A DNA stretch of 64,000 nucleotides from an uncultured bacterium. GTDB lineage: Bacteria; Planctomycetota; Phycisphaerae; Phycisphaerales; SM1A02. Numbering within the stretch: position 1 is the first letter of the stretch; every line of letters starts with the position of its first letter. Position numbers and translations under genes: made by a program. This document shows positions 5,705 through 12,087 of this stretch, in pieces. The stretch is taken from contig CAIXJC010000024.1 of NCBI GenBank assembly GCA_903919715.1, forward strand, positions 62,001 through 126,000, in the 5' to 3' direction. The notes beneath the pieces were generated by a model, which saw only the letters and a list, made by a program, of their open reading frames with translations, was not told the origin of the DNA and searched no databases.

Positions 5705-7318
5705 TTAGCGAATGAATCGAATCCGACCAAAGTCGGGGATAAACGATCGGCCACCATGATCCATCGCAAGTGGCGATGGAAAATAGACAGACCACGCTTT
5801 GCCAATGATCATTTCGCGTGGAACGATGAAGGGGCTTTCAATCCCAAGTTCATGAACGACCAGTGGGTGCGGTCGACCCCAGAGTCTTGAATCTTTGCTT
5901 GCGCCACTGTTGTCACCGAACATGACATACTCGCCAGACTTCACTCGTGAGAGATTGACTGGATCAGTCGCAAACGCAAGTCCCGTCAATGCTGGCCCGT
6001 TGGTTGGGAATTGGTTGTTCGCGCTCAAAAAATCTGGGCGGTAGTACAAGTCACGTTTCACTTCGACACGGCGAACAGTGAATGGTGAACCTTCAAATGT
6101 CCAGTGGAGACCAGTTGGAGTTGGGCGTTGCCCCATGGGATTCGCAAGGACTTGTTCGATTGTTCGTCCAAAGTGCGAAGCAAGAAGTCTCTTGAGTGGG
6201 CCGCCGAGATCGTATTGGAGGCTTGCAATTCGTTCGCCATTGACGAACACAGTCATTTCCTGATCGACATGCCACATCTCCAACCAGAGTGGAGTATTCA
6301 CCGTCGCAATGAACGGGGCGGTGACTGTTGCGATCAGTTCATGCGACTCTGCTTGGTGCACCGAAAGTTCAACCTGCCCATTCATAAATTCAAATCGGTA
6401 CAACAACCCGCGTGCGGTCATATCGAGAGTCGTATGAAAACGCGCTGGGTCTGTGACGTCGATTGCCGCAGCGATACTGAGATCCGCAGTTGGAAAGAGT
6501 GGAATATCTCGGCGGTAAACGTTGTAAGCGTTCCAATCATCGAGTGCGAGAATGTCATTGGACCACGTCATACTCGCTGGAGAATCTTTCGCCCATGTCC
6601 ACGCACGGTCGCCGCGAAACTTCCATCCGTCCGACGGAATCCATGGTGCTCCCAACCAATGTTGCCGCATTCCAGATTCGAGACGTGCGATATCCACCGG
6701 TTGAAAGTCGCTGTCATAGACCGGCTGCCACACTGCACGTTGGATGTATTCGGGCTTACGTTCGATTCGCAAATCGTCCGCATTCGCAGTGATTGGTCCA
6801 GTAAAAACATCGCCATCAGAAACCAGAAGTGTTTCGTTGGGCATTCCAACGAGACGCTTGATGTAATACACAGCATCCCCGACTGGGTCAGTTGGATTCT
6901 TGAAGACCACGACATCCCATCGCTTTGGTGCGGTAAATGGGTAGAGATACTTCAGAACAAGAACGCGATCACCCATTCGACCCTCTGATGCAAGCTCGTC
7001 ATTGGGGATCATGAGCATTGGGTACTGTCGACTGATCATCGGGTCGAAGATCGGTCGTTCGCCTCGCATCTTGTTCATTGCGGCCATAACGACTTCGGCG
7101 TTATCCGCGGCATACTCATATCCAGTTGCTGGACTTCGCAATCGCACATGAGCACCCATGAGTGTCGGCGCCATTGAGCCTGTTGGAATCACGAATCCTT
7201 CGAGGACAAATCCGCGGAACGCCATCGCAAATACAAAGGCGACGATCAACGACTGTAATGTTTCGATGATGCCACTCGATGTCTGTGGCGCGGTTTCTTG
7301 CGCGCGAATGGTGTTCAT
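5705..7318 (-). CDS. lepB: Signal peptidase I with large lectin-like insertion
   Basis: Signal peptidase I removes signal peptides on the outer face of the cytoplasmic membrane with a Ser/Lys dyad. The 537-residue protein has one N-terminal membrane anchor (about 17-43), nucleophile Ser48 in VIPTGSM, general base Lys154 in YYIKRLVGMPNE, and the late conserved box GDNSGASKDSRLWG (468-481). Between the Lys box and the last box lie about 285 residues, far more than in ordinary LepB. Part of this (about 280-365) looks like a beta-sandwich of the LamG/concanavalin type, with WLEMWHVDQEMTVFVNG. The gene follows ricT by 12 bases and is probably in the same operon. Confidence 0.9.
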   Translation of the reverse strand: MNTIRAQETAPQTSSGIIETLQSLIVAFVFAMAFRGFVLEGFVIPTGSMAPTLMGAHVRLRSPATGYEYAADNAEVVMAAMNKMRGERPIFDPMISRQYPMLMIPNDELASEGRMGDRVLVLKYLYPFTAPKRWDVVVFKNPTDPVGDAVYYIKRLVGMPNETLLVSDGDVFTGPITANADDLRIERKPEYIQRAVWQPVYDSDFQPVDIARLESGMRQHWLGAPWIPSDGWKFRGDRAWTWAKDSPASMTWSNDILALDDWNAYNVYRRDIPLFPTADLSIAAAIDVTDPARFHTTLDMTARGLLYRFEFMNGQVELSVHQAESHELIATVTAPFIATVNTPLWLEMWHVDQEMTVFVNGERIASLQYDLGGPLKRLLASHFGRTIEQVLANPMGQRPTPTGLHWTFEGSPFTVRRVEVKRDLYYRPDFLSANNQFPTNGPALTGLAFATDPVNLSRVKSGEYVMFGDNSGASKDSRLWGRPHPLVVHELGIESPFIVPREMIIGKAWSVYFPSPLAMDHGGRSFIPDFGRIRFIR

Positions 7319-7330
7319 TGCTAGCGCATC

Positions 7331-8350
7331 CTACTGCGCAGGTTTATTCGTGGGCGGCGGTGGCTGCTTTTTGCTTGGCTCGTCAGGCCGCGCAAGGACA
7401 CGAACATCTTCGATTGGATAAGCGAACTCATGCCCATTTGATTCCAGCCTGACCAGAACCAACTGCACCAAAATTCGCGCTTCGATCACGACACCAGCAC
7501 CATCTGGAGTCTCGACGCGAGCCTTCACTTTGGGCATCCGCTTCGACAGCGTCTCGTAAGTTTCATCCTCATATCGAAGGCAGCACATCAATCGACCGCA
7601 GCGTCCACTGATTTTCATTGGATCGAGTGTCGCCTTTTGCAACTTCGCACTTTTCATCGAAATAGGCTTGAGCACTTTCAGGAAATTCTTACAGCAGCAG
7701 TGCTGTCCACACTTTTCGTAATCTGCAACCAGCCGTGCTTCATCGCGCGCGCCAACCTGCCTCAATTCAATTCGTGCCGAGAAGCGAGTGGCGAGGATCT
7801 TGAGCAGGTCTCGAAAATCGACACGTTCTTCACTCAAGTAATAAATGGTGAGCACTTCACGGCCAAAGATCGGCTCGACCGCAACGAATTTCATGGGCAG
7901 ACCGCTGTTTCGCAAGAGCTCTTTCGCCACAGGACCGAGGGCGGCAGCTTCAGACTGCGTCGCATTCCACTGGGTGATGTCATCGGTTGTGGCAACACGA
8001 AGAATTCGCCCATCCTGATGGAATGGATAATCCCGCCCGCCTGAATTTTCGATGTACTCAAGCACCTCTTGGCGCGTGACGCTTTTTGAACATCCCGAGT
8101 TTGAACAGACGGTTGTCAGCATCTCCACGAGCTCAGTACCCCGGTGAGTATGCGCGATCATTCGTGTTCCACATCCAGGCTTCGCTCCGCCTTCATATGG
8201 ATATTCAGCGATCCACTTCATTCGTCCACCTCGAACAACGATGGAGGTCGGTGGCTTCAGCTTCGCATATGCCTCAGCATCTGTTTCGAGCGTGCGAAAA
8301 CTCGGATCTGCATCTCGCTCGAAAATAGGCAAGGGCTGGATAGACATCAT
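7331..8350 (-). CDS. ricT: PSP1/RicT (YaaT) family protein
   Basis: RicT of Bacillus subtilis is part of a Fe-S containing complex that affects RNase Y-dependent mRNA processing. The 339-residue protein carries the family core: PISMKSAKLQK (229-239), then LDPMKISGRCGRLMCCLRYE (242-261), preceded by a Cys cluster CGQHCCC (214-220), the residues proposed to bind the cluster. The C-terminal tail is Pro-rich (KKQPPPPTNKP). The ATG at 8350 shares one base with the der stop (TGATG), a coupled arrangement. In other phyla RicT often sits near tmk or DNA polymerase delta-prime genes; here it is next to der. Confidence 0.85.
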   Translation of the reverse strand: MMSIQPLPIFERDADPSFRTLETDAEAYAKLKPPTSIVVRGGRMKWIAEYPYEGGAKPGCGTRMIAHTHRGTELVEMLTTVCSNSGCSKSVTRQEVLEYIENSGGRDYPFHQDGRILRVATTDDITQWNATQSEAAALGPVAKELLRNSGLPMKFVAVEPIFGREVLTIYYLSEERVDFRDLLKILATRFSARIELRQVGARDEARLVADYEKCGQHCCCKNFLKVLKPISMKSAKLQKATLDPMKISGRCGRLMCCLRYEDETYETLSKRMPKVKARVETPDGAGVVIEARILVQLVLVRLESNGHEFAYPIEDVRVLARPDEPSKKQPPPPTNKPAQ

Positions 8351-9792
8351 CAAGCCCGTCCGGCGGATCGTCGATTCTTTGCGTCGTCTGGATCTCGACG
8401 ACGTGCGCTAAAAACGAGTTTGATTGGAACTTCTGAATACGGCAATTCTTCGCGCAGTCGATTCAAGAGATAGCGTTCGTATGCGCCTTCAAAGAGCGCT
8501 GGCTTGTTGACAACCATTGCAATTGTTGGCGGGTTGGTCTCGATCTGTGAGATGTAATAAATTTTCGCGATCGTCCCCAGTTTGGAAGAAGGCCCGCGTT
8601 CCGTAAGGATTTTCTGAACGAGCGCATTCAATTTTCCAGTCGTCTCGCGGTGGCTCGCTTGGGTGTGGAGGTTGAACGCCATTGAGATTGCATCATTCGT
8701 GCCATCACCATTTTTTGCACTGATGAAGACCATCGGCGCAAAGTTCAACATTGGCAATTCCTGCGTCAAATACTCCAGGTAATCACTGGGCGTTTGCTTT
8801 TTCTCAACGAGATCCCATTTGTTGACGACGATCACGGTCGGCTTGAATGCTTCAACGAGCTCGCCGGCTAATTGCTTTTCAACCTGAGAAACGGGCTCCG
8901 TTGCATCGAGGAGCAAGAGCGCAACATCGGCTCTGCGAAGCGCCACTTCGGTTCGGTTGTGGGAATAAAACTCGACATCATCAGCCCATGACTTGCGCTT
9001 ACGAATTCCAGCGGTGTCGATGGCAATGAATGTTCGGCCGTCTAATTCGAAGCGAACATCGACCGAATCGCGGGTCGTTCCTGCGATTTCGCTGACGATG
9101 ACTCGTGGGGCACCCGCAAGCGCATTCACCAGACTGCTCTTGCCTGCATTGCGGCGTCCGACAATCGCAACTTTCATTTCGGGCGAAGTCGGTGGTTCTT
9201 CTGTTCGCACTCCAAGACGGGTCCAAAGCGCCTCCATCAAATGCCGGATTCCAGATCCAGCCTTTGTTGAAACCGCCAACGTGTCGCCGAAGCCGAGTTT
9301 CGCCGCATCAAGCGCATGAACTTCCCACGAAGGTCCATCAACTTTGTTGGCGACCTGCATCACGCGATCGGTATTTCCGGCTCGGCGCAAGAGTTGAGCG
9401 ATCCGCTCATCAAGCGCAGTGATCCCAGATTGGGCATCAATAGTGAAAAGGACAATCGTTGCACCTTCGACCGCAGCAAGAATCTGCGCTTCGATATCTG
9501 GTGCGAGCGAGGACAGATCTTCGCCAGCGTCGTCAAATCGTTTTCCCTCAGCAACGTAGATTCCAAATCCGCCGGTATCGCAGAGTTCGGCAACACGAGG
9601 CAACGTGTCTGCATCGTTTTCAATGTCGTTTGGAGGGTGAATTGTGATGATGGTCGAAATTCGATCGCGGGTCACTCCCGGTGTCGGATCGACGATAGAA
9701 ATGCGTTCGCCAGCAAGCCGATTAAACAGGCTGGATTTTCCCACATTGGGGCGACCGACGATAGCGATGACTGGCAACATGGGAGATTGCAA
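8350..9792 (-). CDS. der: Ribosome biogenesis GTPase Der (EngA)
   Basis: Der has two tandem GTPase domains and a KH-like C-terminal domain and acts in 50S subunit assembly. The 480-residue protein shows a first P-loop GRPNVGKS (13-20), a second P-loop GRRNAGKS near residue 205, DTAGIRKRKSW following the second G2 region GTTRDS, the NKWD box, and a C-terminal KH-like part ending in basic residues. Length is normal. A second ATG four codons in (MLPVIAIVG) is an alternative start. Its stop overlaps the ricT start by one base. Confidence 0.95.
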   Translation of the reverse strand: MQSPMLPVIAIVGRPNVGKSSLFNRLAGERISIVDPTPGVTRDRISTIITIHPPNDIENDADTLPRVAELCDTGGFGIYVAEGKRFDDAGEDLSSLAPDIEAQILAAVEGATIVLFTIDAQSGITALDERIAQLLRRAGNTDRVMQVANKVDGPSWEVHALDAAKLGFGDTLAVSTKAGSGIRHLMEALWTRLGVRTEEPPTSPEMKVAIVGRRNAGKSSLVNALAGAPRVIVSEIAGTTRDSVDVRFELDGRTFIAIDTAGIRKRKSWADDVEFYSHNRTEVALRRADVALLLLDATEPVSQVEKQLAGELVEAFKPTVIVVNKWDLVEKKQTPSDYLEYLTQELPMLNFAPMVFISAKNGDGTNDAISMAFNLHTQASHRETTGKLNALVQKILTERGPSSKLGTIAKIYYISQIETNPPTIAMVVNKPALFEGAYERYLLNRLREELPYSEVPIKLVFSARRRDPDDAKNRRSAGRA

Positions 9793-9833: not shown

Positions 9834-10421
9834 TCACTTTTGAGTGCGCATGACGAACCCGAATTTCTTGCACAATGGTCCTTGTTCGCGGCGCATGAGC
9901 GTGATTGCTCGCTTGACACCTACGCGCGTTCGAGGTTCGTAGTGCAAGAGTGTGAGCCAGTACGTTTCAAAGATCGTTGACTCCAACCAAGGGACTTCGC
10001 GGGAAAATCCACTGATACAAAGTGCCTTTGTTCGTCTTATGAATTTCGCAAGTCTTGCTGGCGGAATTTTCATAAATCGGCATCCTGAAAAATGCAGGAT
10101 CCGACCCTTGCAGCGACCAGCAAGCATTTCCTCGAGATCATCGAGCGAGATTCGTTCGAGTGGAACGCGCATGTCGCCTGGAAGTAGTTCGCCAGGCCTG
10201 GAATGAATTGCGAACCAAAGCAGGTCAAAATTGCGATATCGCGCTTGAAATGATCGACGTAAATAAAATTCAATTTCTGCCCGAGTCACGACATCGCGAA
10301 GGACATACGGAATACGCGCATCGCTGCTCTCCATCAGGTCGAGAGCCGGACGCATCGACATGGGCCGAATAAGTCCAAACCAATCGGCCTCGAGACAGAA
10401 CACGCCATGGGTTTTCGCCAT
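9834..10421 (-). CDS. Caspase-fold-like protein of unknown function
   Basis: The 195-residue protein resembles a small family of uncharacterised bacterial proteins that begin with a GVFCLEADW-type strand (I believe catalogued as DUF6642, from memory). Read against CHAT/caspase-type peptidases it has the same order of elements: a strand ending in His (LLWFAIHS, His73), an acidic helix after it (ISLDDLEEMLAGR), a strand ending in Cys (GRILHFSGC, Cys114), and then ALCISGFSREVPW...FETYWLTLL, resembling the CHAT pattern that ends in a Trp and a helix. A His/Cys dyad peptidase or a degenerate relative is therefore possible. No signal peptide is seen. It lies between gpmI and der with gaps of 46 and 41 bases. 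Confidence 0.7.
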   Translation of the reverse strand: MAKTHGVFCLEADWFGLIRPMSMRPALDLMESSDARIPYVLRDVVTRAEIEFYLRRSFQARYRNFDLLWFAIHSRPGELLPGDMRVPLERISLDDLEEMLAGRCKGRILHFSGCRFMKIPPARLAKFIRRTKALCISGFSREVPWLESTIFETYWLTLLHYEPRTRVGVKRAITLMRREQGPLCKKFGFVMRTQK

Positions 10422-10467: not shown

Positions 10468-12087
10468 TTACCGCAACAAAAGAGATCGGCCAGTCATCGC
10501 TTCGGGTGCGGGAAGACCCATCATGTCGAGCATCGTTGGTGCGATGTCGGCGAGTCGCCCGCCGGTGCGCAGCGATCGTCCGCGAAACGCATCACCGACA
10601 ACGATGAGCGGGACGTCGTAATTCGTATGTGCAGTATGTGGTGCGCCAGTGATCGGGTCTTTCATCTGCTCGACATTTCCATGATCCGCCGTGATGATCA
10701 GAGATCCGCCGCGAGCAAGTACGGCATCGACGATCTTCCCAACGCACGCATCGACAACTTCGACTGCTTGAATTGCGGCGGGCAAACTTCCCGTATGCCC
10801 GACCATGTCGCAGTTTGCGAAATTGATAATGAGTACATCTTCGCAGTCTGGCGCAGCAATTCGAGCCAAAACAGCGTCGCGCACGCCCGCAGCGCTCATT
10901 TCTGGTTTGAGGTCGTATGTCGCGACGTCGCGTGGGCTTGGAATGATGGTGCGGGACTCGCCAAGAAAAGGTTGCTCGCGGTAGTCATTAAAGAAGAATG
11001 TCACGTGCGGAAACTTTTCAGTCTCGGCGCAGCGAAATTGTCTCAGCGAGTGATCGGCAAGCCACGATCCGAGAATGTCCTTCATCGGTTCGGGTCGCTG
11101 AAAGATCACATGTACCGGCAGTCCTCGTTCGTATTCCGACATCGTGCAGAAAAACAGTTCTTGAGGAACCGTACCCCGATCAAATCCACCATTGGGCAGG
11201 TCGCGAAATGCATTCTCTGAAAACAAAAAGGCCTTGATGATTTCTCGTGGACGATCGCCTCGGAAATTAAAAAAGATCACGCCGTCGCCGTCGCGGATTG
11301 CACCATCAACCCCAGCGATGCGCGTCGGTGGAACAAATTCATCGCTCGACTGACTCGCAGATTCTGGCGCGGCATAGTGAAGTTTAATGGCGTCACGAGC
11401 ACGACCGCTTGTCCGTGTGCTTCGTCCAGTGAAACATTCCCACGCTTGTGCAACTCGATCCCAGCGATGATCTCGATCCATGGCATAAAACCGACCCATC
11501 ACAGTTGCAATTCTTCCACCATGTTCCTTGAGCGCCGCTTCGAGTGTCGCGATGTAACCCAGAGCGGACTGTGGAGGGCAGTCTCGACCATCCGTAAAAA
11601 CATCAACAAAGATGCGCTCCGCAGGGAAGTTGCATTCGCGCGCCAACTTCAGCAGCGCAATGAGATGCGCAAGATCGCTGTGGACTTGGCCGTCACTAAC
11701 TAATCCCATCAAGTGGATGTTGTGCCCGTTTTCCTTGGTGCGTCGAAATGCCTCGTGCAAGATCGGGTTTGATGCGAATCGGCCGTCGCAGATCGCGCGT
11801 GAGATCCGCATGAGCTCCTGATCGACAATTCTCCCGGCGCCAATGTTCTGGTGTCCAACCTCCGAATTTCCCATCACGGGTCCGTTGGAATCCACTGGCA
11901 ACCCGACATCTTCACCACTCGTTCGAATCAAGACGATGGGGAAGTCGCGGGTCAGTCGAGCGTCGACGGGAGTGTGCGCTAAAACCAATGCATTGAACGG
12001 GTCATGCGACGGATGAGGATTTCGACCCCAACCATCGCGGACAATGAGCACGCAGGGAGTGTTGGAAAGTTTCAGCTTCACACGCAC
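10468..12087 (-). CDS. gpmI: 2,3-bisphosphoglycerate-independent phosphoglycerate mutase
   Basis: The enzyme interconverts 3- and 2-phosphoglycerate in glycolysis using two Mn ions and a phosphoserine. The 539-residue protein has the N-terminal metal box RDGWG (17-21; Asp18 where most members have LDGWG), the nucleophile Ser75 in GNSEVGH (73-79), FTDGRDCPP, and the C-terminal metal site GGSLIITADHGN...HTAHTNYDVPLI. Length is close to the usual 510-550. It appears to start the minus-strand run that ends with xylA and is divergent from the YggS-type gene, with 45 bases between the two starts. Confidence 0.95.
   Translation of the reverse strand: MRVKLKLSNTPCVLIVRDGWGRNPHPSHDPFNALVLAHTPVDARLTRDFPIVLIRTSGEDVGLPVDSNGPVMGNSEVGHQNIGAGRIVDQELMRISRAICDGRFASNPILHEAFRRTKENGHNIHLMGLVSDGQVHSDLAHLIALLKLARECNFPAERIFVDVFTDGRDCPPQSALGYIATLEAALKEHGGRIATVMGRFYAMDRDHRWDRVAQAWECFTGRSTRTSGRARDAIKLHYAAPESASQSSDEFVPPTRIAGVDGAIRDGDGVIFFNFRGDRPREIIKAFLFSENAFRDLPNGGFDRGTVPQELFFCTMSEYERGLPVHVIFQRPEPMKDILGSWLADHSLRQFRCAETEKFPHVTFFFNDYREQPFLGESRTIIPSPRDVATYDLKPEMSAAGVRDAVLARIAAPDCEDVLIINFANCDMVGHTGSLPAAIQAVEVVDACVGKIVDAVLARGGSLIITADHGNVEQMKDPITGAPHTAHTNYDVPLIVVGDAFRGRSLRTGGRLADIAPTMLDMMGLPAPEAMTGRSLLLR

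Follow-up and report, generated by a model that had tools for sequence, protein, structure and literature searches.

A predicted minimal caspase-fold peptidase of the DUF6642 family, lacking the HG glycine, in a conserved planctomycete gene run

The window (the whole stretch of DNA analysed, 64,000 nucleotides from an uncultured planctomycete) carries on its minus strand, at positions 9834–10421, a coding sequence for a protein of 195 amino acids, with its ATG at 10421 and its stop codon at 9834–9836. A Pfam match and an AlphaFold2 model assign it to DUF6642 (PF20347) with a predicted caspase/CHAT-like fold. The flanking genes on the same strand, both named by sequence, are gpmI upstream (10468–12087) and der, encoding the EngA GTPase, downstream (8350–9792; relatives begin at an internal ATG near 9783). 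The gaps to these neighbours, 46 bp on the gpmI side and about 50 bp on the der side, suggest that the gene is co-transcribed with them. A scan for sigma-70 promoters and terminators near the gene returned nothing above chance.

In the window's genus, a group of lake planctomycetes, the gene was found in 19 of 19 genomes searched, as one copy in each. The order tmk-yggS-gpmI-X-der, where X is the DUF6642 gene, was kept in all 14 genus loci read, with ricT and lepB next after der where the contig reaches that far. Median dN to the window was 0.129 for the DUF6642 gene, compared with 0.095 for der, 0.106 for ricT, 0.158 for gpmI and 0.169 for lepB, and dN/dS was 0.03–0.08 where dS was estimable. 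The gene is as constrained as its neighbours and is under purifying selection. A preliminary description of this DNA had found the 195-residue reading frame at this position, between gpmI and der and in a housekeeping run rather than a defence island; frame and flanking genes were confirmed, and a defence-island setting was rejected on the fixed synteny and the constraint. Elsewhere in the window (5705–7318, minus strand) lies a signal peptidase I homologue of 537 amino acids, well above the usual length, in which a large insert separates the catalytic parts; this homologue is kept across the genus loci.

The window protein scored above the curated cut-off of the DUF6642 profile (E-value 5.2e-10; 39.7 bits, cut-off 27), and the profile was matched by 57 of the 57 members of our alignment. 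Searches of NCBIfam, PHROGs, PADLOC and, by direct sequence comparison, the PDB gave no usable match to the window protein. A literature search found no paper on DUF6642, which Pfam lists with its function unassigned. Homologues were gathered from related genomes, from a scan of about 85,000 species genomes and from a scan of viral contigs. Members occur mostly in Planctomycetota, and also in Verrucomicrobiota, Acidobacteriota, Myxococcota, Gemmatimonadota, Bacteroidota, one actinomycete and two viral contigs, with identities to the window protein down to 26% in an alignment of 83 rows. Beyond the window's genus the distribution is patchy: members were found in 13 of 45 genera of the same family and in 6 of the 210 genera sampled across the phylum. 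In other clades the gene lies beside an ABC-2 permease and accA, beside a histidine phosphatase and a DEAD-box helicase, or beside a ThuA protein. When the neighbourhoods of DUF6642 loci were compared, no partner gene was common between clades, and the neighbourhood points to no substrate, activator or inhibitor. These statements on neighbours rest on tblastn and Pfam, as the composition-based gene caller misses genes.

Several homologues differ in form or context. Two planctomycete genomes encode distant relatives (L026:646–1929, plus strand; L081:4470–5966, minus strand) with a canonical SHG...SxC in the DUF6642-like region; because that region comes after a hydrophobic N-terminus and a 'GTWQTTFGPM..EGDRV.G.Y' repeat present once or twice, they are probably exported fusions. 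A 218-amino-acid relative from a genome of the same family (L038:4616–5269, plus strand) falls under the Pfam cut-off but keeps SHG...AC and the EVPW motif, and might connect DUF6642 with other families of caspase-like proteins. The viral homologues lie on a 212 kb contig (L162:4974–5540) and a 27.8 kb contig (L163:4992–5585), the latter adjoining a DUF6712 protein and a tape-measure-like reading frame. Contigs labelled Chitinophaga, Bacteroidia and Limnohabitans (L110, L118 and L140) hold genes nearly identical to those of planctomycetes, probably because the bins bear a wrong label or are contaminated.

The AlphaFold2 model of the window protein, built with 57 sequences, had a mean pLDDT of 94.6 and a pTM of 0.91. 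Its elements run β1-α1-β2-α2-β3-(His73)-hairpin-α3-β4-(Cys114)-α4-β5-α5-α6-β6, the complete caspase order, with strands at residues 7–11, 39–43, 67–71, 108–111, 135–139 and 189–193, and helices at 24–32, 47–57, 93–100, 121–131, 145–160 and 166–187. The clan CD fold is a six-stranded sheet, five strands parallel and one antiparallel, with five conserved helices in caspase order; the predicted model shows this fold, its strand directions resting on whole-length matches to caspases. What the preliminary description had read from the letters reappears in the model: a His-ended strand (67–71, then His73), an acidic helix (93–100), a Cys-ended strand 41 residues on (108–111, then Cys114) and a Gly-Phe...Trp...helix element (Gly138-Phe139, with Trp145 opening helix 145–160), in the order of CHAT and caspase-type peptidases.

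A Foldseek search of the PDB with this model, in which the caspase sheet order is present, placed SAVED-CHAT (8tl0) at the top (E-value 1.2e-5), caspases next, and TPR-CHAT and others behind. VIA-align gave a Z-score of 14.0 for SAVED-CHAT (3.8 Å over 176 residues) and about 11 for caspases and for TPR-CHAT/Csx29 of Craspase (7y85, 8eex). A second model, of a distant Verrucomicrobia member and built from HG-type rows only with the window's clade left out, had a pLDDT of 92.4 and ranked its matches as the window protein did (SAVED-CHAT Z 14.4). A caspase/CHAT-like fold is therefore strongly supported by structure prediction. In the viral structure library (BFVD) no informative family was found among the matches; the one clear match was a 320-amino-acid phage protein, A0A8S5MXG5 of Myoviridae sp. 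ctWaE18 (E-value 1.7e-7, TM 0.68), likely a phage caspase-fold protein.

In the model, His73 (codon at 10203–10205, minus strand) directly follows strand 3 and Cys114 (10080–10082, minus strand) directly follows strand 4, as do the dyad residues of the six-stranded caspases (C14A). The spacing of 41 residues compares with 42 in TPR-CHAT (H585/C627; PMC9729208) and in caspase-7 (His144/Cys186). Both residues were invariant in 61 aligned homologues and in 83 of 83 rows of the larger alignment, so the pattern is not due to chance. The preliminary description had offered three possible roles, a minimal protease, a switch protein or a fold relative that lost activity; this invariance favours an active protease with His73 and Cys114 as its catalytic dyad. 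Phe8, Cys9, Glu11, Trp14, Leu27, Phe127 and Gly138 were also unvaried in the 83 rows, while position 145 was Trp in 81 and Phe in 2.

A link to CHAT was also sought by sequence comparison. The window protein did not reach the cut-off of Pfam CHAT (PF12770), and 4 of 57 DUF6642 members reached CHAT, with a best E-value of 4.6e-4. When DUF6642 was aligned by hhalign with 18 CHAT sequences from planctomycete genomes, His73 fell opposite the CHAT His and Cys114 opposite the CHAT Cys, at an E-value of 6e-4 and a probability of only 29%; HG-type rows alone gave the identical pairing. The score was 32.1; none of 40 column shuffles went beyond 20.7, and the reversed alignment gave 13.6. The profile alignment supports kinship of DUF6642 with CHAT, which the 29% probability does not settle. 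Peptidase_C14 (PF00656) had no match in the window protein or its genome, and that genome had no CHAT match either.

Our preferred reading, to which we give a probability of roughly two in three, is that the window protein is a minimal cysteine peptidase made of one domain with the caspase/haemoglobinase fold of clan CD; bacterial CHAT proteases are its closest structural counterparts, and it is presumed catalytic from its dyad. It would probably cut proteins on its own, apart from the known systems of defence and cell death.

One feature that sits uneasily with this proposal is the residue beside the His. A review describes the glycine next to the catalytic His as a conserved structural feature of every clan CD family (PMC4357240), and the window protein has Ser74 at this site (codon at 10200–10202, minus strand), whereas the wider family has the glycine: of the 83 rows, 43 have Gly after the His, 26 have Ser and 14 have Thr. 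HSRPG instead of HG, noted early as a caution, was thus correctly read for the window protein, yet is limited to one clade. In a tree built without column 74, a single branch parted Gly from Ser/Thr rows (SH-aLRT 99), the whole pattern amounting to three changes, and the 40 Ser/Thr rows formed one planctomycete clade that includes the window protein. As judged from this tree, the glycine was lost secondarily in one clade, and its absence is not the sign of a misread. Residues fixed in the 40 rows cluster near the dyad (Trp69, Arg75, Leu80-Pro81, Gly113, Phe139 and Glu142), and residue 115, directly after Cys, is mostly Arg. Residue 113, directly before Cys, is Gly in this clade compared with Ser, Cys or Ala in 42 of the 43 Gly rows. 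The same branch therefore lost a glycine beside His and gained one beside Cys; coupling of the two changes can be no more than suggested, because they represent one evolutionary event.

Loss of the glycine in 40 of 83 rows is also what might be seen if the caspase fold had been kept as a protein-binding scaffold or switch without catalysis, at least in the Ser/Thr clade, and this is the main rival reading. Inactive bacterial caspase homologues are common; pseudo-orthocaspases make up 8.6% (PMC6426788), and planctomycete metacaspases keep the dyad in only 64% (PMC3501461). Known bacterial pseudo-variants, however, alter the dyad itself (PMC6426788), whereas His and Cys were unvaried throughout DUF6642, all 40 Ser/Thr rows included, in contrast to the planctomycete metacaspases that often lose them. 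Simple decay of the Ser/Thr clade is argued against because both dyad residues stay invariant there, and we consider a non-catalytic scaffold unlikely. A bolder version of the peptidase reading is that DUF6642 is a previously unrecognised stand-alone clan CD peptidase family with a conserved planctomycete housekeeping role, in one clade of which the predicted active site was rebuilt by shifting the glycine from behind the His to in front of the Cys, from H-G...S/C/A-C to H-S/T...G-C, as a still working caspase-type centre that lacks the otherwise conserved HG. We advance this tentatively, as a proposal somewhat short of an even chance.

If the window protein is a peptidase, His73 would activate Cys114, which would attack the peptide bond, with the oxyanion hole provided by backbone NH groups beside the dyad. 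Since backbone groups would form the hole, Ser or Thr in place of Gly74 need not abolish it. Specificity in clan CD is set by loop 1/helix 1, loop 4 and loop 5, the last carrying a conserved aromatic residue (PMC4357240). By analogy, candidates for the S1 pocket are Glu11, an unvaried loop 1 residue with which strand 1 ends (codon at 10389–10391, minus strand; a possible pocket wall), and Trp145 after strand 5 (9987–9989, minus strand; the candidate loop 5 aromatic). Their fit to these loops suggests cleavage after a basic P1 residue. Bacterial orthocaspases and metacaspases, also of clan CD, typically cut after basic residues (PMC6426788). The loop 1 residue is basic in caspases and acidic in DUF6642, so a preference for Asp at P1 would not be expected; caspases share about 10% identity with the window protein. 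Because no sensor or regulatory domain (TPR or SAVED) is attached and no partner gene is conserved, control would have to come from elsewhere: from expression, from dimerisation through strand 6, or from an unlinked partner. Within the window's genus, the protein would probably be expressed together with gpmI, der, ricT and lepB as the product of a resident housekeeping gene.

The structural matches raise a further alternative, an effector of defence or cell death that infection would switch on, in the manner of TPR-CHAT or SAVED-CHAT. CRISPR-linked CHAT proteases are the top matches, occurrence outside the window's genus is scattered, and two homologues lie on viral contigs. SAVED-CHAT, however, shares 14% identity with the window protein, and its SAVED sensor domain and type III CRISPR role are both absent here; TPR-CHAT/Csx29 has a large TPR domain and RNA-guided control, whereas the window locus shows no visible Cas7-11 neighbour. 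There is no conserved adjacent effector and no clear PADLOC family match, other clades have ordinary neighbours that differ from one to the next, and a gene present once in every genus genome searched, at a constant place in a housekeeping run and under strong constraint, is hardly what this alternative predicts; we judge it improbable. Less probable still is a clan CD-fold enzyme using its His-Cys pair for other chemistry, such as peptide ligation or another acyl transfer: legumain-type clan CD enzymes are reported to be able to ligate peptides (PMC5834244), and the clade-specific remodelling near the dyad could reflect changed chemistry, but the nearest structural matches are proteases and nothing specific here points to another substrate.

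With a stand-alone peptidase as the preferred reading, DUF6642 is best handled as a CHAT-like family of clan CD, and the window protein as a variant of it without the HG glycine. A family so far listed under unknown function thereby acquires a predicted fold, a candidate pair of catalytic residues and a mechanism open to testing. In the Ser/Thr clade, nature has in effect run the experiment of whether clan CD peptidases need the HG glycine that is described as conserved among them. Defence and cell death are the usual context in which caspase-like proteins of bacteria are discussed; a member with one domain, held in a genus-wide housekeeping run, would offer a chance to ask what role this fold may have outside defence.
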